The position numbers were made by a program, and so were the translations under genes. Positions 1,593 to 41,049 of a DNA stretch of 49,647 nt are shown here, one piece after another. Location: the NCBI GenBank assembly GCA_030595715.1, contig JAUVCN010000004.1, positions 1 through 49,647 on the forward strand. The letters run 5' to 3'. This stretch comes from Thermoplasmatales archaeon (GTDB lineage Archaea > Thermoplasmatota > Penumbrarchaeia > Penumbrarchaeales > Penumbrarchaeaceae). Positions within the stretch are counted from its first letter, which is position 1. Each line of letters begins with the position of its first letter. Under the pieces are notes generated by a model. It saw only the letters and a program-made list of their open reading frames with translations, did not search any database and had not been told where the DNA came from.

Positions 1593-3050
1593 ATGAGGAC
1601 ATCGGATGAATACAGGGAAAGTCTGAAAGCAATGAGAAAGAACGTATACAAATTTGGAGAGCAGATCGATGACATCACCATTCACCCATCAACAAGGAGA
1701 TGCGTGGCAGGTCATGCCCAGATATTCGATGCGACCATGAAAGATGAATACAGGGACCTCCTGACAACAACATCACATCTCACGGGGGAGACCATATCCC
1801 GATATCTCTCGATTGTGGGGTCCGAAGTGGACATGATCAAGAACGTCAAGATGAAACGCCTGATGTTCAATCTAACGGGAACCTGCACCGGGGGAAGATG
1901 TGTCGGTTTCAATGGTATCAATTCAATGTGGGCCACAACATATGACATAGATCAGGAGTTCGGCACCGATTACCACAAGAGGCTCAAGACCTGGCTGATA
2001 GAGGCCCAGAAGAAGGACATCACCCTGGCAGGGGCCCTTACGGATGCAAAAGGTAACAGGGCCCTCCCTCCGCATAAACAGGAGGACCCCGACATGTCCC
2101 TCCACATAGTGGAGAGACGCGATGACGGGATCGTCGTTCGAGGAGCAAAGGTGATGATCGCCGGTGTGGCTGCGGCAAACGAGATAATGATCCTCCCCGG
2201 AACCGGATACAAAGAACCTGATGCCGATTATGCCGTATCCTTTGTCATACAAAGGGATGCGGAGAACCTTACTGTAATAGAGGCCAGACATCCATCCGAT
2301 TCCAGGGACCATGAATGCGGATTCGACAATCCGGTAGAATATGGAGGGATCACGCAGGCATACCTGCTCTTTGATGATGTATTCGTACCGAACGATCGTG
2401 TCTTCATGGCGGGAGAGTGGAAATACGCCATGAAAGCCGTACTCAGCTTCATTGCCCCTTACCGTTCGGCCATCGGGGGATGTGTTGCCGGTCAGGGAGA
2501 TGTCATAGTGGGAGCATCCGCGTTGATGGCAAGGGCCAATGGGATCCATGAAAAGGTATTCAAGGACAAGATAACACAGATGGTCATCAACAACGAGACA
2601 ACATACGGGATGGGAATAGCCGCATCGGCACTTGGTAAGCTCCATCCTTCCGGTGTCTGGATACCGGATGGGACCCTTTCAAATGTGAACAAGGTGCATG
2701 TAGCCACACTTCCCTATGACACCAAGAGGATAGCCCAGGATATTGCAGGAGGAATTGCGGAAACGGGATGCATACCTTCCTGCGAGGACCTGCATTCGCC
2801 GGAATACGGGGAAATGCTCCGAAAATATCTCAAAGCCAACGTGGATGGAGAGACCAGGGTAAGGATAGCCCGCCTCATAGAATGGCTTACCATCGGCGGA
2901 GGCGTCCCCGGATGCATGCATGGAGGGGGCTCACCCGATGGTGCGAAACTCGTTCTCAACGCAACCACTGACATGGAACGTTATATCGATCTTGCAAGAG
3001 ATGTGGGGAGGGTTCACGAGAAGATCCCCGCTCCGGAAAGGAAGAGATAA
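1593..3050 (+). CDS. 4-hydroxybutyryl-CoA dehydratase / HpaB-superfamily protein, atypical cluster ligands
   Basis: This 485-residue protein matches the family of 4-hydroxybutyryl-CoA dehydratase (AbfD, about 490 residues), a flavin and [4Fe-4S] enzyme that converts 4-hydroxybutyryl-CoA to crotonyl-CoA; the fold is shared with acyl-CoA dehydrogenases and HpaB hydroxylases. Recognisable blocks are LTGTCTGGRCVGFNG (residues 94-108), the mid-domain LFDDVFVPNDRVF, GGCVAGQGDVIVGAS (295-309) and a C-terminal GGGVPGCMHGGGSPDG loop. In the Clostridium enzyme the cluster ligands are C99, C103, H292 and C299. Here cysteines lie at 98 and 103 (spacing one residue longer) and at 297, but the position seven before C297 is Tyr290, not His. 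The cluster may be altered or lost, so the reaction should not be assumed. RBS AGGAGG lies in the end of the preceding gene. Confidence 0.75.
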   Translation: MRTSDEYRESLKAMRKNVYKFGEQIDDITIHPSTRRCVAGHAQIFDATMKDEYRDLLTTTSHLTGETISRYLSIVGSEVDMIKNVKMKRLMFNLTGTCTGGRCVGFNGINSMWATTYDIDQEFGTDYHKRLKTWLIEAQKKDITLAGALTDAKGNRALPPHKQEDPDMSLHIVERRDDGIVVRGAKVMIAGVAAANEIMILPGTGYKEPDADYAVSFVIQRDAENLTVIEARHPSDSRDHECGFDNPVEYGGITQAYLLFDDVFVPNDRVFMAGEWKYAMKAVLSFIAPYRSAIGGCVAGQGDVIVGASALMARANGIHEKVFKDKITQMVINNETTYGMGIAASALGKLHPSGVWIPDGTLSNVNKVHVATLPYDTKRIAQDIAGGIAETGCIPSCEDLHSPEYGEMLRKYLKANVDGETRVRIARLIEWLTIGGGVPGCMHGGGSPDGAKLVLNATTDMERYIDLARDVGRVHEKIPAPERKR

Positions 3051-3155
3051 TTCGCACCTTAACATCCAAACGATAAGGGTTAAGTAAGTCGAGAAACTAC
3101 CCGTTCTATCCCCCGAAATCTCATCCCATACGGGGAAGGATGGACCCTATCAGGG

Positions 3156-3174
3156 CCAATACGAAAGATATTGG
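3156..3174 (+). promoter_or_regulatory. Small inverted repeat just ahead of the acyl-CoA synthetase RBS
   Basis: CCAATA and TATTGG form six-base arms around a seven-base loop (CGAAAGA), ending six bases before GGAGG at 3181-3185. It lies in the 142-bp gap between the dehydratase-like gene and the synthetase, which otherwise shows no strong TATA box. It could be an operator or an mRNA hairpin, or chance; no partner copy was seen. Confidence 0.25.
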
Positions 3175-3192
3175 ACCATCGGAGGTTTGAAA

Positions 3193-4842
3193 ATGTCACT
3201 GGAAGATTGCAAAGCCGTTTCAGATATGGATTATGACACCCTTTATAATGAGTTCAAGTGGGACATTCCGGAGTATTACAATTTCGGGTTCGATGTGGTT
3301 GACAAATGGGCGGAGGACAGGACCAAACTATCTCTGGTATCCCTTCATGGTGATGGATCAAAGGCAAATTATCACACATTCTACGATCTGAAGGTCCTTT
3401 CCGACAAGTTCGCCAATATCCTGCTTGACCTCGGTTTGAAGAAGGGAGATCGGGTCCTTGTGATACTGGAATCGATCCCTCAGTGGTATGTGGTCCTTCT
3501 TGGAATGTTCAAGATCGGTGTGGTCCCGATGCCGGGAACGGTACTCCTTACCTCCAAGGACATCAAATACAGGATAAACAGTGCGGGGGCCAGCATGATC
3601 ATCACGGATGTGAACCATGTTGGAAGGGTGGAACGCATCGCAGCAGAATGCCCCACACTTGAGCACAAGATGATCGTAGATGCACCCGTAATGGAGTGGC
3701 TGGATTACAAGGATGAGATGGAAAAGGTGGCCAGGGAGCTTGATATGGATCGGGTTGAGCCCACAAAGACAACAGACCCGATGCTTCTCTATTTCACATC
3801 CGGAACAACTGGAAATCCCAAGATGGTCCTTCACACCCATTCCTATCCACTTGGCCACTATGTCACAGCGAAGTTCGCACAATCGCTGACATCCTGCGAC
3901 CTTCACTGGACCATCTCAGAGACAGGATGGGCCAAAGCGGCATGGGGAAAGCTGTTCGGTCAGATGATAGTCGGAGCAGCCATCATCCAGTGGGAAACGC
4001 CGGGCAGGTTCGATCCTGACGGGCTCCTTAAAGCAATGGCAAAGCAGGGGGTAACATCCTTCTGCGCTCCACCTACCGTTTACCGTCTTCTGATACAGCA
4101 GGACCTGACAAAATACAACCTCAAGCTCAGGAACTGTCTATCTGCAGGAGAACCACTGAACCCTGAAGTGATCAAGGTATGGAAGGAGACGTTCGGTTTG
4201 GACATATACGATTTCTTCGGACAGACGGAGACCGTATGCGTTCTGTCAAACTATCCCTTCATGCCCATCAAGTATGGTTCGGTTGGAAGACCAACCCCTG
4301 GACATGATGTGCGTATTGTGGACGATGAGGGCAATGAGATGCCGCCGGGAGATGAAGGCAACATAGCTATCTACCTGGGAGACAACAGACCCCCCGGTCT
4401 CATGAAGGAGTACTGGAAGGACGAAGAGGCCATGGCGAAGGCATTCCATCACGACCATTACTTCACAGGCGACAGGGCATATCGTGATGAGGACGGATAT
4501 TTCTGGTTCGTCGGAAGAGATGACGATGTCATCAAATCATCGGGATACAGAATAGGTCCATTCGAGGTGGAATCAGCCATTCAGGAACATCCATCGGTTG
4601 CCGAGTGCGCAGTCGTCGGAGCTCCGGACCCCAAGGGTCTAAGGGGTACCCTTGTGAAGGCCTATATCATACTGGTCAAGGGCTATGAGCCATCGGACGA
4701 CCTCACGAAAGACATTCAGAACCATGTCAAAGAGACGACCGCCCCGTACAAATATCCCAGACTGGTGGAATATGTAAAGGAGCTGCCAAAGACGATATCA
4801 GGCAAGATCAAGAGGAAGGACCTCAGAAAGGAATCCGAGTGA
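3193..4842 (+). CDS. Medium-chain acyl-CoA synthetase (ACSM-type AMP-forming ligase)
   Basis: This 549-residue enzyme belongs to the ANL superfamily and would activate a carboxylic acid to its CoA thioester through an acyl-adenylate. The motifs are in order: P-loop-like YFTSGTTGNPKMVLHTH (about 205-221), DFFGQTETVC (about 342-351), YFTGDRAYRDEDGYFWFVGR with hinge region DDDVIKSSGYRIGPFEVE (about 430-460), and the C-terminal catalytic-lysine region KTISGKIKRKDLR. Length is normal for medium-chain or benzoate-type synthetases. The start ATG 3193 follows GGAGG by seven bases; the track begins two codons earlier at a TTG. It follows the dehydratase-like gene on the same strand, so it may supply that enzyme's CoA substrate. 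The acid substrate cannot be read from sequence. Its stop lies 2 bp from the stop of the convergent gene. Confidence 0.9.
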   Translation: MSLEDCKAVSDMDYDTLYNEFKWDIPEYYNFGFDVVDKWAEDRTKLSLVSLHGDGSKANYHTFYDLKVLSDKFANILLDLGLKKGDRVLVILESIPQWYVVLLGMFKIGVVPMPGTVLLTSKDIKYRINSAGASMIITDVNHVGRVERIAAECPTLEHKMIVDAPVMEWLDYKDEMEKVARELDMDRVEPTKTTDPMLLYFTSGTTGNPKMVLHTHSYPLGHYVTAKFAQSLTSCDLHWTISETGWAKAAWGKLFGQMIVGAAIIQWETPGRFDPDGLLKAMAKQGVTSFCAPPTVYRLLIQQDLTKYNLKLRNCLSAGEPLNPEVIKVWKETFGLDIYDFFGQTETVCVLSNYPFMPIKYGSVGRPTPGHDVRIVDDEGNEMPPGDEGNIAIYLGDNRPPGLMKEYWKDEEAMAKAFHHDHYFTGDRAYRDEDGYFWFVGRDDDVIKSSGYRIGPFEVESAIQEHPSVAECAVVGAPDPKGLRGTLVKAYIILVKGYEPSDDLTKDIQNHVKETTAPYKYPRLVEYVKELPKTISGKIKRKDLRKESE

Positions 4843-4844
4843 TC

Positions 4845-7800
4845 TCAATCCTGTTTGGGGGGAAGGCCTATCTTTTCCTTGCCTTTCCCCTTCAATCTTT
4901 TATTTCCGGCATTGCCCTTCAGCTCATCCTTCTTTCCTGACGGGAAGGACCGGATAGTACCTTTTCTTGAGGGGATCACGTCAACATCCATCTCCCTCTG
5001 TCTGCGATCGATCCTGTAATAGGCATAACCCATTGCAAACAGGACGATCAACATTACGGCAAAGAACAGCCACAACAACAGCCCTGTATCATCGGGTTCA
5101 TTGACCTTCCCCGAACCGATGATCCCGCCTATATCGGCAGGATCGACGATCCTGACCGAGAGTGCCTTCGTGAACGAGGAAACCCCATCGAGAGATGTAA
5201 CCGTTACATTCAGTGTGTAGATACCTATCTCGGTATTCTCGTTCACCAGGATCATCAGGGTTGCGTTCATGGACGACCCGGGTGATATTTCGAGAAGATC
5301 GTTCTCTGTGTAGATGTCAATATCATCCCTGCGGGTAGCCTCGCCATCAAGCCTTATTTTGATGTTATCGAATGTGAATCCTCTGTTGTATATCTTCAAT
5401 TCCACCCTTTCGAACTTGATATCGGTCTCTCCCTTGATCTCATCCTCCGGAGGATAGATGACAATGGATGTCCTTTCGGACTCGACAAGAGGTGAATATA
5501 TCCCGATAGAGAGCGTGAAATGAGAGATAGGTGAGAAATCCCGCCCATCTGAGCATATGATCTGGATGTGGTACATGCCGGCTCCAAGTATCCTGTCAAC
5601 AACAAATTTCGGATCGGTATATGTCGTTGTCCATTCCTGGATATCCCCTCCATTATAGAAAGTGCCGATCCTGATGAAGTAGAGTACTGTCTCGTTCTCC
5701 TGATCGACCGATTCATCCCATCTAAGGGTTGGAGACGGATCACTCGTTGCTTTGGGTTCCAATCCGGTTACAGGAGAGGGGGGCATGTTCGCATCGTTCG
5801 ATATCAGAAGTATGGACTCTGCGGCAGTGCCGTTCAGTCCGTTTGCCTCGGGAACGATCTCTATCAGATAGGTCTTGCTGGGTGAGAACGTGGTCTCCTG
5901 ATCAGGATCAAAGTATGTGATCCCCGGTCCGAGGAACTTCCAATCCAGTATGGGTTCACCCGTGTCGACATCCGTGATCTTCATCCAGTATGAGACCAGA
6001 TCCCCATCGGGGTCATATGTGGGTGCCCATGTGATATGAGGTCTGACGGACCCTGATACCTTGGGTTGGATCGAGCTGACAGCATATGGAGGTCTATCCT
6101 CGATTATTATCTCCTCTTTCTCTATTACGACCTGGACACCGTTGGATATACTCTTGTGACCAAGATGATCCCTGGCGCTGAACCTGAAGAAATTATTGTA
6201 ACCGTATGCAAAGGAAAGGTTCAATTTGACATTGTATCCTCCTTCGCTTTCCGGGTCCTCCGAGATGTTTGCGCCGAACCCGGAGATCGGCATCCATTCA
6301 CCATAATTATCGGGTCCTCCAAGGGAGTATGAGACGTTGATGGAATCAAGGTCCAGTCCGGATCCGAGGTCCCAAACGGTCACATCAACAGCAACCTCGG
6401 TGTCATATGATCTCTGCCCCGAACGTGGCGAGTTCACTCTGAAAAAGGGTCCTGTTGGATCGACCCAGACATTGAACGTATCAGTTACCGTGTATCCATT
6501 CTCATCTTCACCGTTCCCAATTTTATCTTTGGCGCGGAACCTTACCTGATTCTCATCGCCTCCGAACAGGACGATATTGACGGTATATTTCACCGTGTTG
6601 TTGTCTATGATCTCCGAGGTCCCCTTCCTCTGCCAGCTTTCCCATGCTCCCGTTGCCAGGTTGTATCTTTGATAGGATATGGACCAGGGGTCAACACCTG
6701 ACAGTTCATCGGATATTTCCAGAGTGAAATCAACGATATTACTGTCCTTCCATTCATCAACTGCGGGCTCCAAGTAGGTGATAACGGGACCTTCGAAATC
6801 GAGGATGGGTCCACGTACCAGTGGTGTCCTGACCACTGTCCTGTTCCCGGACAATGCCGTAGCATTGAACCGATGATATAGTTCGAGCTCCCTTGTTGGA
6901 GTGACGGTCATTATGAATGTCTCACCATCTCGATAATCGAAGTTAACACCCTGTCCCATCCTCATGGTCATATTGAACGGACTTCCGGGATACGGGAACA
7001 GAAGACCTCCTGTGGACCTGTAATATAGTTCCAGCTTCGGATTTCCAGGCACCGGTATATCGTTCTCGAAGTCGGTGTATGTGACCCGGAATGTGTATTT
7101 CTCATTCAAACCCCCAAGGCTCGGGTTGACAATACCCCCCGAAAGAACCGGACCTTCACCCTCTTCTCCCGAGCCAACTGTCCGGGTATAGTAGATGTCC
7201 GCCTGTGAGTTTGTCCTGTAATCCCTCCATACAAGATGAGCTGCACCGTTCGATACTGCCAGGGAGGGTGTATCCTGGGTGATGCCAACTCCTGCATCAT
7301 TCACGGTCTTGACCGCATCGAATGAACCGTTCCCCCACATTCTGGTCATCTGTATGTCCGATCTCTGATCATTGAATCCGGGGGATGAAGTCCAGCAGAT
7401 GGAAATGTTGCCATCTCCCTCGATCCCCACTTCCGGTTCATACTGATGTCCGGAAGTTGAAAGTGGATGCGCAACCTCTTCCAGAGGGAACGATCGTGCA
7501 AGATCATTGGAGATCGTGATATAGATGTCCGCAGAGGACGTCCTGGAATCCTTCCATACGACAACAACGGCTGTCTCGTTGGCATCGATGTCGCTCATGT
7601 CCTGGTCGCTGGAGGATGGGTCCCTGTTGATAATGTATGACGGTAGGAATGTATCTCCTCCGTCCTCGGAAGAGCAGATCAGGATATCCATGTCTATCAG
7701 ACGATCCTCGGTCCAGACCACATGGATGTTGTCATCATCCGTAAATGCGACCCTGGGATTGTAGCAGTTATGGTCAACAGATGTATCGGAGATCCTCACT

Positions 7801-8408
7801 GCATCCTCGAACGTTCCATCACTTCCGGCATGGGCTCCAAATATCTGTTCATGACCTATCGAGAGCCTCGTATCCTCCCAGACGACCATGATCTTGCCGG
7901 TGGAGGAGACATCAAGATGAGGTAGTGTTTGACTTCCCATTAATTTGTATGATACCATGTAATTGCTGGAAAATGTCCCTCCACCATCTGTGGATCTGGA
8001 CATGTAGATCATGGGTCTTCCCTCTCTATCGTCGGACCAGACGATCCAGATCGTCCCATCCGGTCCAACCGATATCTCAGGATCGACCTGGTTTGAAACA
8101 TCATCGGTCAATGTCTCGGTGATGCTCGTGTCATCCACTCTCTTTTCGGGACCGAAGTTCAGACCGCCATCGTCCGAGGACCTGAAATAGAGATCCCAGT
8201 TACCGTTCCTTCTATCCTGCCAGACGATGTGGATATCATTTCCATCAGCGGCAATATCGGGTCTCCCCTGGTCAACATCCGCTGCATCATTATTGATCAA
8301 TATGTCATCTTCGAATGCCAGTGCTCCTTCTGTATGGGTGTTCACCATAAGTCCCATGAACGAAATGGAGATCATGAGGAATGCCAGTGCAAAGTAGTTG
8401 ATCCTCAT
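4845..8408 (-). CDS. Membrane-anchored surface protein with BNR-like repeats, Ig/FN3-like domains and a basic cytoplasmic tail
   Basis: The product has 1187 residues, starting at ATG 8408 behind GGAGGTGG; the track start lies five codons upstream inside that ribosome site. A signal peptide (about residues 1-29, ending near EGALA) is followed by BNR/sialidase-like repeats with Asp-box character, for example IHIVWQDRRNGNWDLYFRSS, IWIVWSDDREG, IHVVWTEDR and AHLVWRDYR (about 40-420). Ig-like and FN3-like domains follow (about 430-960), then a stalk and one helix (about 1108-1131). The 56-residue cytoplasmic end is rich in Lys and Arg. The ATGA overlap (8405-8408) with the upstream FG-GAP gene implies translational coupling. 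Binding to glycan or protein ligands is an inference; no complete sialidase active site was identified. Confidence 0.8.
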   Translation of the reverse strand: MRINYFALAFLMISISFMGLMVNTHTEGALAFEDDILINNDAADVDQGRPDIAADGNDIHIVWQDRRNGNWDLYFRSSDDGGLNFGPEKRVDDTSITETLTDDVSNQVDPEISVGPDGTIWIVWSDDREGRPMIYMSRSTDGGGTFSSNYMVSYKLMGSQTLPHLDVSSTGKIMVVWEDTRLSIGHEQIFGAHAGSDGTFEDAVRISDTSVDHNCYNPRVAFTDDDNIHVVWTEDRLIDMDILICSSEDGGDTFLPSYIINRDPSSSDQDMSDIDANETAVVVVWKDSRTSSADIYITISNDLARSFPLEEVAHPLSTSGHQYEPEVGIEGDGNISICWTSSPGFNDQRSDIQMTRMWGNGSFDAVKTVNDAGVGITQDTPSLAVSNGAAHLVWRDYRTNSQADIYYTRTVGSGEEGEGPVLSGGIVNPSLGGLNEKYTFRVTYTDFENDIPVPGNPKLELYYRSTGGLLFPYPGSPFNMTMRMGQGVNFDYRDGETFIMTVTPTRELELYHRFNATALSGNRTVVRTPLVRGPILDFEGPVITYLEPAVDEWKDSNIVDFTLEISDELSGVDPWSISYQRYNLATGAWESWQRKGTSEIIDNNTVKYTVNIVLFGGDENQVRFRAKDKIGNGEDENGYTVTDTFNVWVDPTGPFFRVNSPRSGQRSYDTEVAVDVTVWDLGSGLDLDSINVSYSLGGPDNYGEWMPISGFGANISEDPESEGGYNVKLNLSFAYGYNNFFRFSARDHLGHKSISNGVQVVIEKEEIIIEDRPPYAVSSIQPKVSGSVRPHITWAPTYDPDGDLVSYWMKITDVDTGEPILDWKFLGPGITYFDPDQETTFSPSKTYLIEIVPEANGLNGTAAESILLISNDANMPPSPVTGLEPKATSDPSPTLRWDESVDQENETVLYFIRIGTFYNGGDIQEWTTTYTDPKFVVDRILGAGMYHIQIICSDGRDFSPISHFTLSIGIYSPLVESERTSIVIYPPEDEIKGETDIKFERVELKIYNRGFTFDNIKIRLDGEATRRDDIDIYTENDLLEISPGSSMNATLMILVNENTEIGIYTLNVTVTSLDGVSSFTKALSVRIVDPADIGGIIGSGKVNEPDDTGLLLWLFFAVMLIVLFAMGYAYYRIDRRQREMDVDVIPSRKGTIRSFPSGKKDELKGNAGNKRLKGKGKEKIGLPPKQD

Positions 8409-11400
8409 TCTTCCACCTCCCATTCCTCATCGAGATCTTCCTCCTCGAGTTCAAGGTCCTCCAGATCGACCTCGATCTCTTCAACTTCTTCCAGATCATA
8501 TTCATCGATCCCTTCAACTTCTATCTCCTCTATCTCGATCTCTTCAGGAGAATCGGTGAAGAGATCCGATCCGATCTCGTCTTCATCCGGTATTTCCCAA
8601 TCCTCGATGAGAACCTCATCCGGTGGCTCAATATCCGGTGCGGCCTTCAAGGGTTCCTTTTTCCTTTTTTTCTTCTTCTTTCCCTTCAACATATTGTCCT
8701 TATCCTTTTCAGTGAATACAGAACCGCATTTTACACAGTACTCATCGGATATCTTTGCTTCTTCACTGCAATATGGGCAATAGGGCGTTACCTGTCCGGG
8801 ATCGTAAACTGCATTGATCATCATCGGATCGTCCATCGGTCTTTGATCGACCTCTCTTTGACCCCAGAACAGGTATGCGGCAAACAAGCCTGAGAGAGAT
8901 CCGAGGATCAATACCAGGATGAGGAGCCAAATAAGATCCTTGATCTTTGTACAAAGGCTATCCTGTTTCACTTCATCGTCATCGATCGCTTCCTTGATCT
9001 CGATGACCCGGATCCGGACCTTTTCCGAGGAAACGGTATGGGTGCCATCTGTTACTATCAACTGGATGTTATGGACGCCTATTGTGGTCAATGTCGCATT
9101 TGCTTCCATCCCGGTTGCTATCAGCCCGTCACCCGGATATCCTTCAAGGTCCGAATACCATTTGAATGTCAATTCCTCCCCTTCGGGATCGATGGAGGCA
9201 GAAGCGTTGAGGATAATGGATTCTCCTTCATAGATGAGATCCACAGCCGGCAGGATGCTGAAGAGTGCGGAGGGAGGGAGGTTCGTCTTCGAGAGAGCAA
9301 CCTCGATGGAGATGGGTGTGCTGATCACCCACCCATTACCTGCCTGATCCCTCGCCCTGAACCTGATGAGGTTGAAAGCCCCCTCATCCAGTGTTACGGT
9401 GGAAGTGGCCATGTAAGAACCACCTATGGTCTGGAGCTCATCCACCTGTGTCCAGGGAGAGTATCCACCAACTCCGTAGAGGATCCACGTGGATAATCTT
9501 GAAACTGAGAACTCCACATCACCCTTGACCATCCCGCTCGCTTCTTCGGAGATGAATGCGGACACATCCAGATCGACCTTTGATTGGACCAGTGAGGAGT
9601 TTGGAAGGAATCCGGTGAATTCCGGCATGGTCCTGTCCACCAGCACAGCCACCTGATCACCCTCTGCAAGGTTTCCGGCTCTATCCCATACACGCCACTG
9701 GGCATATCCATAACCCTGGAAATCCGGGTCCACTTCTATTGATGGTGACGCCGAAACCCTGGATCCTTCAAGTCCTATCTTGTACCAGTTCGAATCCTGG
9801 AAGGATGAATGGCTGTCGAACCTGAACTCCACAGTGGAAAGATCGAGCCACGAAAGTTGATCATACATGTAGCATTCGAACATGTATGTTCCCGGGCCGA
9901 TGGTGACACTGGTATCACCGGCATCTATGGATGGAGGTGTGAGGTCGATGCTGAAAGGGATAGGTTCGGATATGGCAGTGATGCCTGCCATATCTGCAAC
10001 GCTCCACTGGATGTAATGGTTGTAGGCTTCCATTGATGGAACCGGAGCTACCAGGCGTGTTCCGTTTTCTTCTTCCTGCCAACCGAGGACACCGGACCAT
10101 TCTGTCAGTATATCCGAATCTGCCCTGAATGTCCTGTATCTGGCAGTTGAAGGATCGATCCCCGATCCGCTATCGATCACGAGGATGGATAGCTCATCCA
10201 CTTCCCATGTCAGCCATGTGTCGCTTGGAGGCATGGATCTTGTGAATATTGGGGGTGTTGTATCTGTGAGTATGTTCCTTGTTACCCCTGGCCCCAGGTT
10301 CCCTGCTCTGTCTATGGCCCACAGGGTAAGTTCTATCTCGCCTTCATCGAGCATGAGAAGCGTGCCTCTTTCGGCAGGGTCATATATCTCTGGTTCCGCA
10401 TTGCCCCGGCTGATCTCCAGTATGAACCTGTCAATGCCCGATGGGCCGATATCGAATATATTTTCCCAGTATATCTCGACGAACCTGTCATTATCTATCT
10501 CATCTATTCCGGCTTCCTTGCCATCTGCAAATACCGCGAAGGAGCTGACCTCGGGAGGTGATCCTGTATCGACCTTCAGGGTGATGGTCTGATTATCCTT
10601 CCAGATGGACCCGACGGGAAGTGGTTCATCCATCAATGGAGCAAGTCTGAAATTAGCGGCTGAACTTGTTATTCCATCCCCAACGGGAGTTGCATTGATC
10701 ATCAGAGTTGACCCATTCACGATCCCCCTGCCGATCAGGATGCCGTCAGGTCTGTAGAGGCCGAGGTTCACACCGTTCAGGGCCATCCCTGTGATCTGTT
10801 CCCCGTTCATTGTGTGATGAAGGGTGATGTTCTCTACCATGATCTCGGTGTCATTCCTGGCCCAATCATCCAATGTCCTATCCTGGGTGTAGGAAGCAAT
10901 GAAACCTTCCGGGTCGATCGAGATGGTCCTGTCGACCCTGAACTCCTTGCTCAGGTAGTTGGTGTATGTTCCGAGTCCACCCTGTATCTCCGTCGTGATC
11001 ATGCTTGGGTCCGGCATATTCCAGCCTATGTAGAAGGCGATGTCGGCATACCATGTCTCCACATCATCATTGGATGCCGAACAGTTGGATATGTCGAGCC
11101 ATATCCTGTCCTGGAAGATACCTGTTGTTTCCAGGCTGAAGGTCCGGGTATCCGTATCGAAGTCCATCATCGCGTCCCCTGTCCCCATCAGCGTCTTCAT
11201 CTTGATCGAAAGCGAATCAATATCCTGATATCCACCAAGGGACCTGCCGGAGACCTTTATCGTGTAAGGCCCTGCCATGGGAGAGAGGTATTGGAGCTCT
11301 CCTCTTTCACCATCCGGATCCGGTACCAATGTATCGGAGATGATCCTCGCGGTGGAGATCTTGACATCTCGATAGAACAGGTCCTTTCCTTCCCAGAGGA

Positions 11401-14395
11401 ATGCCCCACCCGGCCTTCTACCGTCACCATACGGGTCATGGGCGGGGGACCCCATCAGAAGGTCCATTTTCTCATTTCCACTAAGGTTCCCTATGGAGAT
11501 AGATGATCCGGACAGGTCTCCATCTCCTTTTGAAGATAGTACCGGTAGGGATGAGGAATTCAGCATCGTCCCATCCTTGATCAGTTTTGAATAGAGGACA
11601 AGTGTCCCTCCGGTGGTGGCGCCTGATAACTGGTCCTTGAATCCCTTGGCTCCGATCCCGAGGTCTTTGGATCCGTCTCCGTCCAGGTCTCCGATCGCAA
11701 GAGATGATCCCAATCTCTCCAATCTCATTTCCCCGAAGATGGACAGGTTCCAATCGGTCCGGAGCGAGATGTCCCCACCATCAATGATGGATGCGAGATA
11801 CTCTCCAAAAAGGAGGTAAGCATTCCCTCCCTGGGGTGTAGTTCTCTGATATCCATCTCCACTGGGTGAACCGATGGCAAGCTCTGCCTTACCATCGTTA
11901 TCAAGGTCACCAATTGCCAATGATAGACCTATCTGATCGTACTGCCAGGGTCCGAATATCCTTACGGACCCATCACTCAGAAGATCGTATGATGCATTCC
12001 ATGTTGACCTTCCTTTCATGATGTATACAAGTCCCTGATCCGGTATGGAGCCGAGATCTGACCTCGGTGCTCCTATCACGAGGTCATCGATGCCATCCCC
12101 GTCCACATCTCCTGACACCAGGGTCTGCCCTATCATCTCGTTGGCGATGGATCCTGTTATCTTCACATCGGCCATTCCGATCCTTCCGGATGTGGAGGAG
12201 ATCGGACCGAGGAAGATGAATACGTTTCCTGCGTGATATCTGTTCAATGATTGTGAGGCCATGGTCCCAGGGGACGAAACTGCCAGGTCATCGATGCCAT
12301 TTCCGTCGAAGTCTCCCACGGTTACCGCATAACCGACCTTTTCAACAGAATAACCCAGTACCCTCTTGTAGTTCTCCTGTTCCATGTAGGATCGTGTGCC
12401 GCCCCAGAAGATCTGGAATGCACCGCCGTTGTTCATTCCGTCATACTGTTCGGGCGCCCCTATGACCAGATCGGGATAGCCATCATTGTTCAGATCGCCC
12501 GAGGCAAGAGAAGATCCGAAGTTCGTCTGGCTTGGATGCAAATCGGTCTCATAGACAATGTCCGCATCTTTTTCCGCATCATAGATGGGCTTCCAACCCG
12601 TCGCACTTCCGAAGAAGAGGTAAACCCCTCCCACATTGGTGGTATAGGCCAGGGGGTCACTGATCACCATGTCGTTGTATCCGTCGGAATTGAGATCCGC
12701 TATCAATGTGACCGCACCAAAAGTAGATGATACATCACTCCCGAACAATCTGGTCTCGAATTCCTGAACCTGCATGAACATTGAAACCATTCCAATGGTC
12801 GTGGTCCCATCCTCCCCCGTGAATCCAGGTGAAGCCGTCAGGAACTCGCTGTGATCATCGCTGTTCACATTCAGGGCAAGGATATGTGAAAATGCCATTT
12901 GTCCTTCCTTCATTCCCATATATCTGATATCAGCGTCCGTCACGTTCAATATCTCGGGGAAGGTCCCATCGATCTCGTACCTCAATCCTTCACCGCAGGA
13001 TGTGAACTGGTTCCTTGCCCCATCGGCTTTTGGAGCACCTATTAATATCTCGTCAATGGAGTCACCGTCGAGATCGGAGCATAACAATGTCGCTCCAAGA
13101 TGATCTGACGAGTCCTCGCCATAGATCGTCGTGTTGATCCTGTCAGAATAGATGATCTGTCCATCGGTATGGTCGAATCCTCTCAGTATCCATACCTGAC
13201 CTGCATCTGCCCTTGTTCCGGTGATGTCATATGTCGCTGGGGCGCCGATCACAAGGTCATGATACGGATCACCGTCGAGGTTTCCACCTTCAAGGATCGG
13301 GGATACCAGGACGGTATCGTTCAATTCTATAGTCATATTGGGGGCGTAAGAAGGAATGATGACATCGATGGTCGAGTTGAGTGGAACATGAGGGAAATCA
13401 GGCCCTCCGGTGATCACACTTATCTCCGAGGACATCGCAACATCGAGCTCCCATCGCGTGAATGAAAAGACAAGATCCCCGGTCCCGTCCCCATTGAAGT
13501 CCACGATATCCATCCCTTTTCCGATCTCCATGGCATGATTATCCGTCGTGACCGTGGCGGTCGAATTCCAGGATGAGAAATATCTGACCATCTTCGGGTC
13601 CAGGTCCAGGATAATATTGTTGATAGGGTCGGAGGATCCCTGGATCACCTCGATCTCCCAGGAGCCCAGAGCGCTGTTCTCATACCCATGTTCATATTCG
13701 GATGTACCACCGTATCCTCCGGCTCCATTGGTTCCCAGTGCCAGATCGTACAATCCGTCACCTGTGAGATCTCCAAGGACCATTCTCTGTCCGATCAGGT
13801 CCGCTGCATCCCTGCCGTATATGTGGCCGTAAAGACCTACATTTCCGATCCACATCCGTGAGGGATATTCTGATCGAAGCCTTCCCTGAAGAATGTAGAC
13901 CTCACCGGAGCTTCGTCTGCTCTCTCCCACCCCATCGGCCTCACTGGCCGAGATCAGGAGCTCATCCCTTCCGTCACCATCCATGTCCCCGGCAGCGATC
14001 GTCGTCCCGAAACGATCCCCGCTATCGACACCATAGATGATCAGGTCCGCATCGGATGTCCCCTGGAATGGAAAGAACTCATCAAGGTCCCTGGCGAAAT
14101 ACACGAGGACCGCACCAGCGCCATTTTGACCGGTGTATGTGGGGATCCCGACCATGATATCATCCCTTCCGTCACCATCAATGTCACCCGTTGCAATGGA
14201 ATTACCGAAACCCCATGCGGTTTCATCGCCTCGTATCTTGAGATATTCATCCCTGCCGACCAACATCCAGTCGTCGATCTCGGTGTAATCGGCCCCCTTT
14301 GCCGGAAGATGGTCGATCACAAGGACAAATGAAAAAAGCTGCAAAAAAAGCAGAGCGGTCAAGAATACTGTAATCTTTGATATTGTTCGGGACAA
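8405..14395 (-). CDS. Giant FG-GAP (integrin-alpha-like) propeller surface protein with PKD domain, zinc ribbon and acidic cytoplasmic tail
   Basis: About 1996 residues. I prefer TTG 14395 as start because GGAGGT (14402-14407) sits six bases before it; the track ATG at 14425 is upstream of that site. After a signal peptide come about fourteen FG-GAP blades with calcium-loop signatures such as GDIDGDGRDDIMVGIP, GDMDGDGRDELLISA, GDLNNDGYPDLVIGAP and GDVDGDGIDDLVIGAP (about residues 50-1010), enough for two seven-bladed propellers. Ig-like domains with AxDxAGN motifs follow, then a PKD-like domain (PPSALFSILP...). A single membrane helix (LIWLLILVLILGSLSGLFAAY) is followed by a cytoplasmic zinc ribbon (CPYC...CVKCG), a KGKKKKKRKK patch and a long Glu/Asp tail. 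Integrin-like propellers usually bind proteins or sugars. It is cotranslated with the next surface protein (ATGA overlap). Confidence 0.85.
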   Translation of the reverse strand: MSRTISKITVFLTALLFLQLFSFVLVIDHLPAKGADYTEIDDWMLVGRDEYLKIRGDETAWGFGNSIATGDIDGDGRDDIMVGIPTYTGQNGAGAVLVYFARDLDEFFPFQGTSDADLIIYGVDSGDRFGTTIAAGDMDGDGRDELLISASEADGVGESRRSSGEVYILQGRLRSEYPSRMWIGNVGLYGHIYGRDAADLIGQRMVLGDLTGDGLYDLALGTNGAGGYGGTSEYEHGYENSALGSWEIEVIQGSSDPINNIILDLDPKMVRYFSSWNSTATVTTDNHAMEIGKGMDIVDFNGDGTGDLVFSFTRWELDVAMSSEISVITGGPDFPHVPLNSTIDVIIPSYAPNMTIELNDTVLVSPILEGGNLDGDPYHDLVIGAPATYDITGTRADAGQVWILRGFDHTDGQIIYSDRINTTIYGEDSSDHLGATLLCSDLDGDSIDEILIGAPKADGARNQFTSCGEGLRYEIDGTFPEILNVTDADIRYMGMKEGQMAFSHILALNVNSDDHSEFLTASPGFTGEDGTTTIGMVSMFMQVQEFETRLFGSDVSSTFGAVTLIADLNSDGYNDMVISDPLAYTTNVGGVYLFFGSATGWKPIYDAEKDADIVYETDLHPSQTNFGSSLASGDLNNDGYPDLVIGAPEQYDGMNNGGAFQIFWGGTRSYMEQENYKRVLGYSVEKVGYAVTVGDFDGNGIDDLAVSSPGTMASQSLNRYHAGNVFIFLGPISSTSGRIGMADVKITGSIANEMIGQTLVSGDVDGDGIDDLVIGAPRSDLGSIPDQGLVYIMKGRSTWNASYDLLSDGSVRIFGPWQYDQIGLSLAIGDLDNDGKAELAIGSPSGDGYQRTTPQGGNAYLLFGEYLASIIDGGDISLRTDWNLSIFGEMRLERLGSSLAIGDLDGDGSKDLGIGAKGFKDQLSGATTGGTLVLYSKLIKDGTMLNSSSLPVLSSKGDGDLSGSSISIGNLSGNEKMDLLMGSPAHDPYGDGRRPGGAFLWEGKDLFYRDVKISTARIISDTLVPDPDGERGELQYLSPMAGPYTIKVSGRSLGGYQDIDSLSIKMKTLMGTGDAMMDFDTDTRTFSLETTGIFQDRIWLDISNCSASNDDVETWYADIAFYIGWNMPDPSMITTEIQGGLGTYTNYLSKEFRVDRTISIDPEGFIASYTQDRTLDDWARNDTEIMVENITLHHTMNGEQITGMALNGVNLGLYRPDGILIGRGIVNGSTLMINATPVGDGITSSAANFRLAPLMDEPLPVGSIWKDNQTITLKVDTGSPPEVSSFAVFADGKEAGIDEIDNDRFVEIYWENIFDIGPSGIDRFILEISRGNAEPEIYDPAERGTLLMLDEGEIELTLWAIDRAGNLGPGVTRNILTDTTPPIFTRSMPPSDTWLTWEVDELSILVIDSGSGIDPSTARYRTFRADSDILTEWSGVLGWQEEENGTRLVAPVPSMEAYNHYIQWSVADMAGITAISEPIPFSIDLTPPSIDAGDTSVTIGPGTYMFECYMYDQLSWLDLSTVEFRFDSHSSFQDSNWYKIGLEGSRVSASPSIEVDPDFQGYGYAQWRVWDRAGNLAEGDQVAVLVDRTMPEFTGFLPNSSLVQSKVDLDVSAFISEEASGMVKGDVEFSVSRLSTWILYGVGGYSPWTQVDELQTIGGSYMATSTVTLDEGAFNLIRFRARDQAGNGWVISTPISIEVALSKTNLPPSALFSILPAVDLIYEGESIILNASASIDPEGEELTFKWYSDLEGYPGDGLIATGMEANATLTTIGVHNIQLIVTDGTHTVSSEKVRIRVIEIKEAIDDDEVKQDSLCTKIKDLIWLLILVLILGSLSGLFAAYLFWGQREVDQRPMDDPMMINAVYDPGQVTPYCPYCSEEAKISDEYCVKCGSVFTEKDKDNMLKGKKKKKRKKEPLKAAPDIEPPDEVLIEDWEIPDEDEIGSDLFTDSPEEIEIEEIEVEGIDEYDLEEVEEIEVDLEDLELEEEDLDEEWEVEE

Positions 14396-14998: not shown

Positions 14999-16202
14999 AA
15001 GTTCTTGCATCTTGGGCAGTACCAGGAGCTGACCCTTTTTTTGTAGGTCATACCGGATCCGCAAACGGGGCAATTTTCACCCTTCTTGCCTTTATCATGC
15101 GTGACACTGAACATATCTGATGGGTCCTGGGACCCGGTAACACCCAGGTCCTCAGGTCTCTTGAAACTGAAATCGCTGCTTGAACCCTTCTTTTTTTTAT
15201 GTTTCTTCTTGGGGGGTTCGTATTCCTCATCGTCTTCATCGATGTCGCGACTTACCTTCTTTTTTTTTTAGGTCTCTTCTTTCGGGGAGGTTCGTATTCC
15301 TCCTCGTCATCTTCTTCTACGGGGCGTCTCTTTTTCTTCTTGGGCTTCTCTTTCTTCTCTGGCCTCTTTTTCTTCTTATGTTTCTTCTTGGGAGGTTCGT
15401 ATTCCTCTTCTTCTTCTTCCTCCTCTTCTTCAGGAGGTTTGATTACGCCCTTTCTTCCACAATCATCACATTCGAATCTGAATGGAGGTTTCTTTGCTTT
15501 GACCTTGATGAGGTTGCCACACTTGCAACGGATCTTGATGATCTCTTCTTCATCCTCATCGTCTTCATCTTCTTCTTCATCGTCCTCTTCTTCATCTTCT
15601 TCTTCATCGTCCTCTTCTTCTTCATCATCTTCATATTCTTCTTCGTCTTCTTCTTCATCGTCCTCTTCTTCTTCATCATCTTCATCTTCGTCTTCTTCAT
15701 CTTCTTCTTCATCGTCCTCTTCTTCTTCTTCATCGTCTTCATATTCATCTTCGTCTTCTTCATCTTCTTCAGGCTCTGGTTCCACCTTTGGTTTAGATGT
15801 CTTTCCAATAACGAAGATCTCTTCCTCATCATCCTCGAGGCTGATAGGTCTGTAGGATGATTTCACCGCATGTTCATCCTCATCCAGGTCAAGGTCGAAC
15901 CCCTTCTTCTTCTTGGACTTCTTCTTTTTGGGTTTTTCCTCTTTGACCTCGACCTTGGCCTTCTTCTTCTTTGAAGATTTCTTCTTCTTCGGTTTCTCTT
16001 CTACTGTCTTCTTCTTTGATTTGGATTTCTTGGTGGAAGCTTTCTTCCCCTTTTTCTTGTCCAACCCTTCTTCCTTGGCATATTTCTTTGCAAAGGCCTT
16101 TGCCTTTTTAGCATAAACGCCAGTGGGTACCCAACCGCACTCCTGGCATTCCTCGAAAGGGTAGTCCATTTCAATTTTGCATTCCTTGCACTTGACCTTC
16201 AT
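14992..16202 (-). CDS. Highly charged three-zinc-ribbon protein, interrupted by a frameshift in an A10 run
   Basis: The track ends this ORF at 15252 (316 residues), but the protein clearly continues in another frame to TGA at 14992-14994. An N-terminal ribbon (CKEC...CQECG), a Lys-rich segment, a very long Asp/Glu segment, a second ribbon (CKCG...CDDCG) and two copies of an EEYEPPKKK-like motif come first. After the shift, a third EEYEPPKKKHKKKK copy appears, then FKRPEDLGVTGS and a final ribbon CPVCGSGMTYKKR...WYCPRC. The break lies at ten T on the plus strand (15260-15269); one more base restores a 403-residue protein. This is either a sequencing or assembly error or slippage on poly-A. There is no signal peptide, so it is cytoplasmic. 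A good TATA box lies upstream and GAGGTGG precedes the ATG. The function is unknown; nucleic-acid binding is one guess. Confidence 0.75.
15540..15780. repeat. Low-complexity GAA/GAT tract encoding the Asp/Glu-rich segment
   Basis: The minus strand runs as GAAGAAGATGAT-type triplets for about 240 bp, with near-repeated units such as DEEEDEEE and EYEDDEEEE. It behaves like a coding microsatellite that can change length by whole codons. The poly-Ser ORFs on the plus strand are its shadows. Confidence 0.85.
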
Positions 16203-16349: not shown

Positions 16350-19300
16350 TCACAATGATGGTGGTTCGTTCATTTCTATCCCTTCATCAGCTTCAGGTGG
16401 ATATGAGAGATCGTCATCGACCTCCTCGGGGCCGGGAATGTCTGTATGTTCTATCTGCCCTTCCACGACCTCGGATCCTTCATCCATCACATCATCTTCC
16501 TGAATATCCAGGCTTCCCGAATCCAACCCATCCTCAAGAGGGATGTTGGCTCCGCATTCCGGACAGTAATCCAAACCATCTTCAAGTGTAGCACCGCAGG
16601 AGGGGCATTCTCCCTTGTTTGCCTCTTCCTGCTCACTCCAGGTGGTCTCAGTGGTTTCTTGAGCTTCCTCAATGACATCCTGCTCTTTTTCTTCCTGGGA
16701 CCTTTTCTTCAATATGATGAGGGTCACTGCAATGATGACTATCAAGACGATGACAGCGGCCACGATCAGGAGGATCATCGTTGGATCACCGCCGCCGTCA
16801 GCTGGTGTGGGCTTATCTTTGGCATCCAGAGGGTCCGTATTCGCTCTGAACTCTTCCAGGTTCGTATATCCATCTCCATCCGGATCCTGGAGAGCATCAC
16901 TTCGGTCCAGTGGATGGAATCCGTTGTCGACCTCCCATCCATCGGTCATCTCATCTCCATCGGAATCCTTCAACTCGGGATCGCTTCCTGTGTTGTACTC
17001 TTCCACATTTGTCAGTCCGTCGCCATCTTCATCCTCGGATGCATCCGTTGGATCGGAGGGACTGAGGAATGTCTTTTGCACCTCATACACATCCGGGATA
17101 CCATCGGAGTCGGAATCGACCCTGTCATCATCGATCGTTCTGAAGCTGAATCCAAGGGTCGGTCCCAGGTTCCCCCTGAGGTCCTCGATATAATTGATGG
17201 TAAAAGTGTAGTTCTTACCTCCTGACAATGCCTTTGTGAGAAGATATTCAACGGTCCTGTTCTCCTCATCGATCGTCGCGATGAGATCTATCGTGCCATC
17301 AGAGAACGGATCATCGACCACTGAAGCTTCCAATTGGCTCCAGATCACGAGTTCGCTGAACTGGATAATGAATACAGGTGCATGATCAAGGTCAATGTAG
17401 GTGGTCGGCTGTAAAACGGTCGCAACAGGGACAGTGTCATCTGGCACACGGGATCTGATCTTGAACAAAACGCTATCATGATTTCCCGAAAGATCATAGA
17501 CGGTCAATAGCACGGTGTAATTGCCCTCATCGAACATATGCTCCAGGGTATCGCCCGTTATCTCTTCTGTTCCATCCGGGCCTGTTATTGTCCAGACGGC
17601 TGAATGAACCCCTACATCGTCTGACGCGTTCGCCGGCAGGATCATGATCCAATCATTGTCCGTCTCTATCATTTTATCTTCAGGTAGTTCGAGCCCTATC
17701 GTTGGTTCGCTCAGATCTATCTGGATGGATTCTACATCGGAAAAGGCTCCCTCATTGTTTCCGGGATCCACCGATCTTACCTTGATATCATGGACCCCCT
17801 GGCCCAATTCCATGAAGAAGAAGAAGTGTCCTTCGAACGTCGCGGGCCTGGGAAGGTCAGGGTTCGGGTTCACATAGAGTTCATCATCCACGAATACATC
17901 GATGAAGCTCCTGTTCTCCCCTTCCACATTTCCTCTAAGAGCGATCTGGGTCCCATTATAATATCCGGACCCTTCAACGAACTGTGACGGGTCGTCAAAT
18001 ACGATCTCAAGTGTTGGAGCTACAGGAGGTGTGATGTCCAGGGTTCCAAAGATCAATTCATCTGTAAGATTGGAATAGTTCGGGATCTCACTATCGTCCA
18101 CACTTCTCATTACGAGTCTATATGCCGTTTCATTGGTAAGGCCCGTCAAATTGTAGGTCTGTGTTTTTTCACCGACACCCAGGGTCGAATTGACAAATGA
18201 ATGGAATACACTGGGTCCCATTTCATTTCTCAGGAAGAACTCGTAGCCAATGACATCAGCGGATGATGATCTGTTCCATTGTACCTCAGCCCAATCCCCT
18301 CCTCTTCCTTCGATCGAAATATCAACAGGTACCTCGGGAGATGTCTGATCAAGGGTTTTTACCCTGATCGGTCCGACGACATCGGATGGGTTATTGCTGC
18401 CATCTATACAGGATAATTTGATGTCATATTCCAATTCCTCAAGTAGTCCTTCAACCGCATTGGCCGGGATCTCGCTTGATATGTTCCAGTCCCTGGAACT
18501 GGGTCCTGGTTCCTCCGTATCCCATTCGGATTCCGATTCCCACCATTTCTTGTAATTGATGATGAAGAACTTCACCTCTGATGCGTTACCATTGAACTCC
18601 CATTTGATATTGATATGATGAGCCCCCTTTCCGGTAACCGTCAGATTGACCGGTGTTTCCGGAGGTGTGAAATCCATTTCCCATAGGAGATCGATATCGG
18701 CTCCCATATGCAGGGGCGGATCGTTTATTGCTTCACTCCACCTGTTGTTCTCAGCGGTCATTTTCAATGTGAAATTGACCCTGGCATTGGACCTGGATCC
18801 CGAATGGAGATATTCTTCAACTGCAATGGGCGGTAATCTTCCATCAACACCAGTTGTGGGGTCACCCGCCTTGGAATCATATACGTCCCAGTCACTGGTC
18901 CCTGGCTTCGTGGCAGATATCTTCAGTTCGGCTCCCATATAAGGTGTTCCGTCGATATCCCTTACCGCTTTGAAATTGAACCAATTTCCCTCGTGGAGTG
19001 TGCCTCCGGACACATCGACATTGTACTGTGCGGACAATGAGCAGTTGATCGCCCATACCTCTGAACCGGAATATGCGAAAACACCGGTGGAGGAGACAAC
19101 CGTGGAATTGTACAACCTGAGGGTTGACCCGGAACCTATTGCACCAACACCTTCGTTCGCGGTTATGGTACAATGGTCAAGAATCCCTATACCTCCAGCG
19201 GTGATATTGATCCGATCGAAACCATTCGATCCGGACCCCGTGAATTGGACAGGTGAGGGCCCGGTCCCTATCGCAGTTAGATTTCCCTTCACTTCCATCC

Positions 19301-19559
19301 ATATGTCATCTGCCAGATTAACGATGACCCCGGGAGATATTGTCAGTGTGGACCCTTCGGTGATCGTTAGATTTCCCTCAATGATCACCGGTGAATCAGA
19401 GGTGGACCACGTGACATCACCATTGATCTCCCCTTCTGACAAGGTAATTGCTTCTACCCTCTCACTTGAACCAATAAGGACCAAGGCTGACATCAAGAAC
19501 ATTAACAATACTGACAAAGGAGCCAGTCTTCTGGCTCCCGAAAGATACGATCCACTCAT
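16350..19559 (-). CDS. Surface protein: beta-helix, FN3, SbsA-type Ig and calcium repeats, with cytoplasmic zinc ribbon
   Basis: The product has 1069 residues. A signal peptide (about 1-37, ending ERVEA) precedes a right-handed beta-helix-like start (GNLTITEGSTLTISPGV, GILDHCTI). FN3-like domains follow (about 295-510, for example VNLTVTGKGAHHINIKWEF), then Ig-like domains and an SbsA-type Ig domain (about 730-820). Next come thrombospondin-3-like calcium loops (DSDSDGIPDVYE, DEDGDGLTNVEEYNTGSDP, DPDGDGYTNLEEFRANTDP; about 822-915). A membrane helix (about 927-951) leads to a cytoplasmic zinc ribbon (CPSCGATLEDGLDYCPECG, 985-1003) and an acidic tail. GAGGTG precedes the ATG by six bases. It probably acts as a cell-surface adhesion or scaffold protein; no enzymatic domain was seen. 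Confidence 0.8.
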   Translation of the reverse strand: MSGSYLSGARRLAPLSVLLMFLMSALVLIGSSERVEAITLSEGEINGDVTWSTSDSPVIIEGNLTITEGSTLTISPGVIVNLADDIWMEVKGNLTAIGTGPSPVQFTGSGSNGFDRINITAGGIGILDHCTITANEGVGAIGSGSTLRLYNSTVVSSTGVFAYSGSEVWAINCSLSAQYNVDVSGGTLHEGNWFNFKAVRDIDGTPYMGAELKISATKPGTSDWDVYDSKAGDPTTGVDGRLPPIAVEEYLHSGSRSNARVNFTLKMTAENNRWSEAINDPPLHMGADIDLLWEMDFTPPETPVNLTVTGKGAHHINIKWEFNGNASEVKFFIINYKKWWESESEWDTEEPGPSSRDWNISSEIPANAVEGLLEELEYDIKLSCIDGSNNPSDVVGPIRVKTLDQTSPEVPVDISIEGRGGDWAEVQWNRSSSADVIGYEFFLRNEMGPSVFHSFVNSTLGVGEKTQTYNLTGLTNETAYRLVMRSVDDSEIPNYSNLTDELIFGTLDITPPVAPTLEIVFDDPSQFVEGSGYYNGTQIALRGNVEGENRSFIDVFVDDELYVNPNPDLPRPATFEGHFFFFMELGQGVHDIKVRSVDPGNNEGAFSDVESIQIDLSEPTIGLELPEDKMIETDNDWIMILPANASDDVGVHSAVWTITGPDGTEEITGDTLEHMFDEGNYTVLLTVYDLSGNHDSVLFKIRSRVPDDTVPVATVLQPTTYIDLDHAPVFIIQFSELVIWSQLEASVVDDPFSDGTIDLIATIDEENRTVEYLLTKALSGGKNYTFTINYIEDLRGNLGPTLGFSFRTIDDDRVDSDSDGIPDVYEVQKTFLSPSDPTDASEDEDGDGLTNVEEYNTGSDPELKDSDGDEMTDGWEVDNGFHPLDRSDALQDPDGDGYTNLEEFRANTDPLDAKDKPTPADGGGDPTMILLIVAAVIVLIVIIAVTLIILKKRSQEEKEQDVIEEAQETTETTWSEQEEANKGECPSCGATLEDGLDYCPECGANIPLEDGLDSGSLDIQEDDVMDEGSEVVEGQIEHTDIPGPEEVDDDLSYPPEADEGIEMNEPPSL

Positions 19560-19659
19560 GCAAACACCTCATTTCCGACGAAGCCAAGCTTCGATGCTGG
19601 TGACCATTACGGACCATGTGACTATCTAAAACTTTTGCCAGGGAATATCAAAGGAACTC

Positions 19660-30100: not shown

Positions 30101-30543
30101 TTCCTCGGATGAAGGAATTCCGAATCACCCATTATCAACAACCACTGGAAGGAGGGATACTCTCTTTTCATATCCCTCAGGAATCCATGTATCCTCTCTT
30201 CCAGGTCCCTTCCTGTTGAATTGACATCAATATCCTCGATGCAGTATATCCTGGTCGGGAGCCCCATCAATGTCCTGTGTACAGCAAGGGGTCTTGTTTC
30301 CTCACTGAAGTTCCTGGGACATATCATGATATATTCCGGATCGATATCCGGCAGATCAAGATCGAGAGGGAAAGGTTCTGTACTCGTGGACCTGATCGAT
30401 ATCTCGAAATGATCCCTATCCGTGTCAGAGGACCCCCTCTGGATCATAAGTGAGGAGATCAGTGTTGTGAACAGGATCAGGGTGGCCAACATACAGATCG
30501 ATCGACGAAGGGAAATCAACATCTTGTGGCACCAGTTCGTCAT
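27115..30543 (-). CDS. C25 (gingipain-like) surface protein with CARDB and cadherin-like domains; catalytic His apparently replaced
   Basis: The 1142-residue product has a signal peptide (about 10-38) and a peptidase C25-like region (about 68-500): YIMICPRNF, WLLIMGDSEFLHPRKLW, DVYFAGLG and DLYVGRIPAST are typical. The catalytic Cys position fits MYASTCDTAKF (C374). However, where family members have 'GHG' or 'GHA' the sequence reads NFVGQARYLA (Q325), so the His of the dyad seems absent. CARDB-like domains (about 590-830) and cadherin/dystroglycan-like repeats (about 850-1075, DPPIVLDTIDG, LTWTPGQEDVGT) follow, then a membrane helix (about 1095-1117) and a short acidic tail. It may be a binding protein rather than a protease. 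It follows the GT39 gene by 36 bp in the same direction. Confidence 0.75.
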   Translation of the reverse strand: MTNWCHKMLISLRRSICMLATLILFTTLISSLMIQRGSSDTDRDHFEISIRSTSTEPFPLDLDLPDIDPEYIMICPRNFSEETRPLAVHRTLMGLPTRIYCIEDIDVNSTGRDLEERIHGFLRDMKREYPSFQWLLIMGDSEFLHPRKLWHNAEARSQPFGDHYYSDVYFAGLGSNWDNDGDMKYGEVYYNGTVEADTDWDLYVGRIPASTEEHVTNYVSKLLRYEKDPPIGTWMKRFNNWGSLMEPPNRDWGDHAYYDHRSNAYKVCQRVNDRLPEHIELQELYDYPQLEGGNYTMYDGKDTLHRNSMLLQFDQGSSMLNFVGQARYLAYALNDYGPPHGDGTAWTWNEPLTYRDHENFTNGDMMPFMYASTCDTAKFFQTGYWEDKSLETWLTSESGGIIGLISATNVSARGEEQNRSWGNWYLDEEFWDLFLNSGETRPGKALYLLKGNYEDEWYSPTMQIKETIMGMVYAYILLGEPYIDIYTDKAERFPSDLTDRVDIYQGNHSFRFRITDRNGKGVANALMTVSSHSTYERFGSNGEGWVEGIIDPLGDEHLNITITAHNMVMGSYDVQVKDEIADILIEKDTLNISPSNIEHGDMVNVTFSILNHGGLPALDVSSRVEISIDGGGNWTLEERKELGDIDEGGTFEISHLFKVRAGHTLKRFTMETSSMEVDLINNALEIEFDISGPEFIFEAGTGAVRPDSISRPGDPLTIEFDIFNQGPASGTLTLQLYLGDPDVDGKPILDPLYIGSVGSNSWSNGSFGIAAPVSTTFIYIVMDPMNEYPIEMVDGAVKTLIVINEPPRPIEKLSIVMLEDSGPGRMRIDTKVNDPDNSTSDITYSVQDTENLTFEILEEGNGTYVHVEPLEDWWGNETVTVKVSDGLGPVDVDLAVNVLPVNDPPIVLDTIDGTIRLTLLEDSLFSIIISVIDKEGNDISFHAEGAPFDIDDSDGRLTWTPGQEDVGTSTWTVLVRDSEGGETAFDIILDVTEMNDPPDAVSIEDITIEPDGSNSIALSIFDEEGDDITILPSHSFITLTGDRTLEVRWDERYVGDTDVTIEISDGINIIYLEFRVTMLPGGDDVRDVNEFKYEPILIAVGIALAMIAVLFIMFMAVRRSPSSALVDDELDDANAIYYEDME

Positions 30544-40883: not shown

Positions 40884-41049
40884 GTGTATCACCCTGTATC
40901 TATCTTATGTTCGAACATTATTGCTCTCTTTTTAAGTCTTTGTGGTCCTATATGCAACATCTTGTCATTATCCATGTCATGGTTGAAAAACGACAGTATA
41001 AGTAAAAATCCTAAATATGATCCGTCTCTTTCCACTACCGGGGAAAAGA

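Follow-up and report, generated by a model that had tools for sequence, protein, structure and literature searches.

Gene Pair and Junction

Two genes coding for giant surface proteins, referred to as A and B, overlap in a 49,647-nucleotide stretch of DNA from a Thermoplasmatales archaeon; this whole stretch is called the window. The locus raises the question whether the two proteins act together and, if they do, what holds them together. According to the first-pass annotation, they are made in equal amounts and joined across the membrane by tails of complementary charge, with an integrin-like propeller outside. Both ORFs, the FG-GAP repeats, the transmembrane helices, the acidic and the basic tail and the ATGA overlap, all of which it had reported, are present.

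8405..14395, minus strand: gene A, 1996 aa from TTG 14395, a giant type I membrane protein with FG-GAP repeats
4845..8408, minus strand: gene B, 1187 aa, a type I membrane protein with an Asp-box propeller and Ig-like domains
8405..8408, minus strand: ATGA in which the stop of A overlaps the start of B
8416..8421, minus strand: Shine-Dalgarno sequence GGGAGG of B within the final codons of A (TGG GAG G, coding for W-E), 7 nt before ATG 8408

The start of A at TTG 14395 is backed by a GGAGG at 14407-14403, 7 nt 5′ of it. Eight sequenced junctions between the two genes were compared (window, G001, G002, G003, G004, G007, G008, and G009), which belong to two families (f1 and f2) of one Thermoplasmatota order. 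In each of them A lies directly before B, as the first-pass annotation had expected of relatives, the stop codon of A is located at, or at most 2 nt from, the start of B, and the 7-mer TGGGAGG upstream of the B start is invariant. In f1, the 7-nt Shine-Dalgarno spacing puts the start of B at the ATGA (-4), and in f2 the same spacing favors an in-frame ATG 6 nt downstream (gap +2; -4/+2). Both spacings are inside the coupling range of -8 to +10 nt (PMC10666635). These sequence features support the view that A and B are coupled in translation and that their pairing is conserved. Such coupling by itself is unspecific, given that further coupled pairs of giant membrane proteins were found in the same genome. 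Equal production, which had been read from the ATGA overlap, does not follow from it, because the product of the downstream gene in coupled operons can reach a several-fold excess (PMC6728339).

The W-E(-V) conserved at the C-terminus of A was considered as a binding motif and rejected, as the invariant TGGGAGG, being the Shine-Dalgarno sequence of B, explains it better. A tryptophan is also found in one unrelated acidic tail (36855-40892), whose end no gene overlaps. At the A/B junction a conserved protein end thus coincides with an embedded ribosome-binding site, which calls for caution in reading such an end as a protein motif.

Architecture of Protein A

The residue numbers of A given here are counted from TTG 14425, i.e., they are +10 relative to the TTG 14395 start. 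The ends of transmembrane helices and the tails of both proteins were set by a simple hydropathy window, and tail lengths are accurate only to within a few residues.

14318..14374, minus strand: signal peptide or N-terminal hydrophobic segment (hydropathy)
12761..14248, minus strand: first FG-GAP propeller, with blade motifs around residues 81, 147, 219, 309, 382, and 451
11336..12760, minus strand: second FG-GAP propeller, with blade motifs around residues 577, 644, 705, 773, 840, 913, and 980
9014..9238, minus strand: PKD-like domain (Pfam PKD_4 below threshold, E = 2e-5)
8879..8935, minus strand: single C-terminal transmembrane helix (hydropathy)
8711..8788, minus strand: cytoplasmic zinc ribbon CPYC-x10-CVKC, its four cysteines invariant in 7 orthologues
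8657..8686, minus strand: basic patch KGKKKKKRKK (+7 per 15 aa)
8408..8635, minus strand: acidic tail ending in ...DLDEEWEVEE

The blades carry DxDxDG loops, and nine stretches of A match Pfam FG-GAP (E = 3e-77). The 13 regular blade motifs and a degenerate one near residue 523, read from the sequence by eye as the seventh blade of the first propeller, add up to 14, which fits two seven-bladed propellers, the number per propeller being deduced from motif spacing. Besides the propellers, A contains Ig/PKD-like domains. A model of residues 37-1100 (pLDDT 76, pTM 0.61) has integrin alpha5, alphaV, and alphaIIb as its nearest solved structures (Foldseek; alpha5 E 8.6e-15, TMt 0.67), and all 50 Foldseek matches listed for it are integrin entries. 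In a phmmer search of the PDB, A matched integrin alphaV at 4e-16. The integrin-like propeller proposed for A is therefore borne out.

Following the transmembrane helix, the sequence of A reads AYLFWGQREVDQ; the tail leads through the zinc ribbon and the KGKKKKKRKK patch into about 75 acidic residues, with a net charge of -39 for the tail overall. The description of this end as a Glu/Asp tail is right for the acidic stretch and incomplete as to the zinc ribbon and the basic patch. The compared orthologues of A, f2 included, retain the zinc ribbon together with the K/R patch and the acidic segment (7/7), and the cytoplasmic part is best seen as a module of its own, without need of the tail of B.

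Architecture of Protein B

7173..8303, minus strand: N-terminal propeller with 4 Asp-box-like motifs (SxDxGxTF)
5109..7172, minus strand: string of Ig/Fn3-like beta domains (predicted model)
5028..5084, minus strand: single C-terminal transmembrane helix (hydropathy and model)
4848..5027, minus strand: cytoplasmic tail of 60 aa, net +9, predicted to be disordered

The model of B (pLDDT 66.5, pTM 0.42; mostly 70-90 in the propeller part) shows the repeated beta strands of a propeller, for which a bacterial (Micromonospora) sialidase is the relevant structural match. Many Ig-rich receptors match the stalk structurally, with low TM-scores. No Pfam match was obtained in B at E ≤ 0.01, and the FRIP motif, searched for with the pattern [FYLW]R[IVL]P, is absent, which makes a sialidase enzyme (GH33) unlikely. 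The tail, annotated at first as Lys/Arg-rich, is basic but mildly so, with 17 K/R vs. 8 D/E and at most +3 per 15 aa.

Distribution in Related Genomes

Relatives of both proteins were identified in 10/10 genomes of f1 and f2, many of the compared genomes being fragmented; the named records among them are uncultured Thermoplasmatota MAGs. Orthologues of B occur in 8/8 f1 genomes with 40-48% identity to the window copy and in both f2 genomes with about 28-32%, and the same ten genomes have matches to A. G002 shows two N-termini of A at contig ends and one B. In two further genomes of the class, no comparable pair was seen: G010 has no match to B at the level of the f2 relatives, and G011 encodes a distant B-like protein, upstream of which no A was found in the 540 bp of available sequence. 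In G001, an in-frame TAG interrupts the A gene (L052 640-645), and the B gene of G009 has an apparent frameshift near its N-terminus (L058 about 5340-5440); each may be an assembly error or decay.

Among the f1 copies of B, the last 47 aa are 21-30% identical vs. roughly 35-60% across the greater part of the ectodomain. This segment, whose end LKG...LPP is conserved in f1 only, has no counterpart in f2. Furthermore, unpaired paralogs of B (e.g., G000:C146, G000:C32, G003:C30, and G002:C11; about 23-25% identity) share the Asp-box propeller, Ig domains, and transmembrane helix, and no orthologue of A was found beside them. A paralogous Asp-box/Ig surface group was also observed at L073 10566-14468, L096 9069-12614, L110 10969-14874, L111 5418-9239, and L131 949-4764, carrying a conserved cytoplasmic DPYxEQRRxYKELYGxEPT followed by an acidic tail.

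Neighboring Genes and Other Surface Proteins

Upstream of A, window positions 15252-16202 encode a soluble protein with zinc-ribbon-like cysteines and alternating EEEE/KKKK blocks, and G003 has an apparent counterpart near A (L051:16566-17678). As an obligate partner of A this protein was rejected, since G001, G002, and G004 have a divergent FG-GAP giant at that place. A Fn3/Big_5 surface protein at 16350-19559 combines a transmembrane helix, a zinc ribbon, and an acidic tail of net -34, a tail of the type seen in A. Two further giant surface proteins, at 36855-40892 and 27115-30543, contain gingipain-type Peptidase_C25 domains and have the acidic C-terminal tails DLGMEWESDDEEDDDWDDDEDLEWDDDE and DDELDDANAIYYEDME. 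Tail-to-tail with B, genes for a HpaB-type hydroxylase and an AMP-binding ligase occupy 1593-4842; a similar ligase ORF converging on B was also observed in G002, G003, G005, and G007.

Tail Charge in Relatives and in the Same Genome

The net charge of the A tail ranges from -28 to -46 in f1 and amounts to -41 and -20 in f2, so that the charge pattern expected of relatives holds for A throughout. For B it fails in part: the f1 tails carry +2 to +9, with only +2 in G002, and the f2 tails consist of just LYRRERMKR and FRSRKRAE (about 8-10 residues). Opposite charge hence does not accompany the pair wherever it occurs. The unpaired B paralogs with readable tails are acidic to neutral (-3 to -25) and have a conserved YKELYG-type motif.

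As a control, 67 type-I-like long proteins were collected from 605 kb of this genome, a sample that is enriched in surface proteins because it includes contigs picked for FG-GAP or B matches. Among these, the A tail ranks second most acidic and the B tail ties for most basic; ten of the 67 tails have a net charge of -20 or lower, and seven tails of the sample contain two CxxC pairs. Other giants with zinc-ribbon and acidic tails are encoded at L073 437-3496, L084 5167-10446, and window 16350-19568. In a test made post hoc for this single pair, random pairs were as opposite as A and B by charge product with p about 0.0005-0.002, and under a looser rule (≤ -20 and ≥ +6) with p about 0.02-0.03. 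Of the tandem giants sampled, no pair other than A and B shows strong opposition in tail charge, and several are near neutral; in the closely spaced tandem L077 3-8095 (1146 and 1554 aa, gap +2), both tails are acidic (-19/-29).

What May Join the Pair

The maintenance of the pair across two families indicates that A and B probably work as partners. That they form a physical complex would have an even chance or somewhat better, because the overlap is conserved and the two genes co-occur, and in Haloferax volcanii subunits of heteromeric complexes are encoded by 45% of the gene pairs spaced -8 to +10 nt vs. 5.6% of those further apart (PMC10666635). The same survey leaves room for a rather unlikely reading, in which A and B are co-expressed from one operon as two separate, independent surface binding proteins: for about half or more of the closely spaced or short-overlap pairs of H. 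volcanii, no complex is known (PMC10666635), and many giant surface proteins stand in tandem in this genome. However, order, overlap, and Shine-Dalgarno sequence have been retained across two families in copies only about 28-48% identical, and the co-occurrence in all ten genomes likewise speaks against independence.

As to the means of contact, the acidic A tail and the basic B tail were proposed to pair electrostatically in the cytoplasm, as a clasp that holds or switches the complex. The opposite signs in the f1 pairs, the restriction of a basic B tail to copies paired with A in this family, the unusual charge product, and the singularity of the pair among the tandem giants agree with it. 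The f2 pairs, however, persist with an acidic A tail although the B tail is almost gone, and the weak charge in G002 points the same way. In addition, A itself holds a basic patch stronger locally than any part of the B tail, acidic tails are common in this genome, the residues of the B tail are poorly conserved, and a mismatch of -39 vs. +9 leaves most of the charge on A unpaired. Complementary tails as the link between A and B are therefore poorly supported and very improbable. A tail role in one family may nevertheless be considered, because the unpaired B paralogs have acidic to neutral tails. For the A tail by itself, a K/R patch that folds onto the acidic segment and neutralizes it, or docking of the zinc ribbon/acidic segment to a separate cytosolic partner or to a scaffold shared by many surface proteins of the organism, is an unlikely though somewhat better candidate, and it is compatible with a two-subunit complex. 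The joint conservation of the three tail elements in 7/7 orthologues and the zinc-ribbon and acidic tails of other giants favor it, but the Zn-ribbon/KKKK-EEEE soluble neighbor is not constant beside A. The slimmest chance is given to an independent analogue of the integrin design, in which the zinc-ribbon/acidic tail of A and the basic B tail of f1 would transmit ligand binding across the membrane.

The reading preferred here, with the chances evenly balanced, is that A and B form a two-subunit, receptor- or adhesin-like surface complex made by coupled translation and joined by the ectodomains and/or the transmembrane helices. As the pairing is independent of a long B tail, the contacts should lie in these regions. 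Such a complex would be specific to one order of uncultured Thermoplasmatota. Both proteins would be made from one message, B being translated via coupling to A, and would be inserted as two single-pass proteins meeting mainly through ectodomain and/or transmembrane contacts. Outside, two FG-GAP propellers of the calcium type would be displayed by A and a single Asp-box propeller by B, in both proteins on a stalk of Ig-like domains, and these propellers would probably serve to bind polymers, partner cells, or an outer layer. Inside, the cytoplasmic part of A would act as a self-contained module of a type that further surface proteins of the organism also have, to which the basic B tail may add a weak contact in f1.

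Comparison With Known Systems

The lineage of this pair is known only from metagenomes, and its cell contacts are unstudied; if the complex is real, it would represent a two-chain surface receptor of archaea that bears propellers of the integrin type. Searches of the literature for Zn-ribbon tails in archaea or for paired FG-GAP proteins in Thermoplasmata brought up nothing on such a pair. The FG-GAP blades of A with their DxDxDG loops resemble the integrin alpha propeller (FG-GAP/Cage, PF01839). Unlike integrin alpha, A has two propellers in tandem, most of whose blades carry loops of the calcium type like those of bacterial examples (PMC3192720), and lacks the membrane-proximal GFFKR-type motif, instead of which a cytoplasmic zinc ribbon is found. 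Its partner B is ruled out as an integrin beta, since the vWA/beta-I (MIDAS) domain is missing and the model consists of a propeller and Ig domains. With sialidase-type/Asp-box propeller proteins, B shares the SxDxGxTF Asp boxes of its N-terminal propeller, but it differs from sialidases in having neither FRIP nor a Pfam match and in its propeller being followed by an Ig-like stalk and a transmembrane helix. Its unpaired paralogs differ from it in the charge of their tails and the YKELYG-type motif. Finally, the -4 ATGA overlap and the internal Shine-Dalgarno sequence are shared with overlapping gene pairs that encode heteromeric complexes (PMC6728339; PMC10666635), from which this pair differs in that A and B are both giant single-pass surface proteins.
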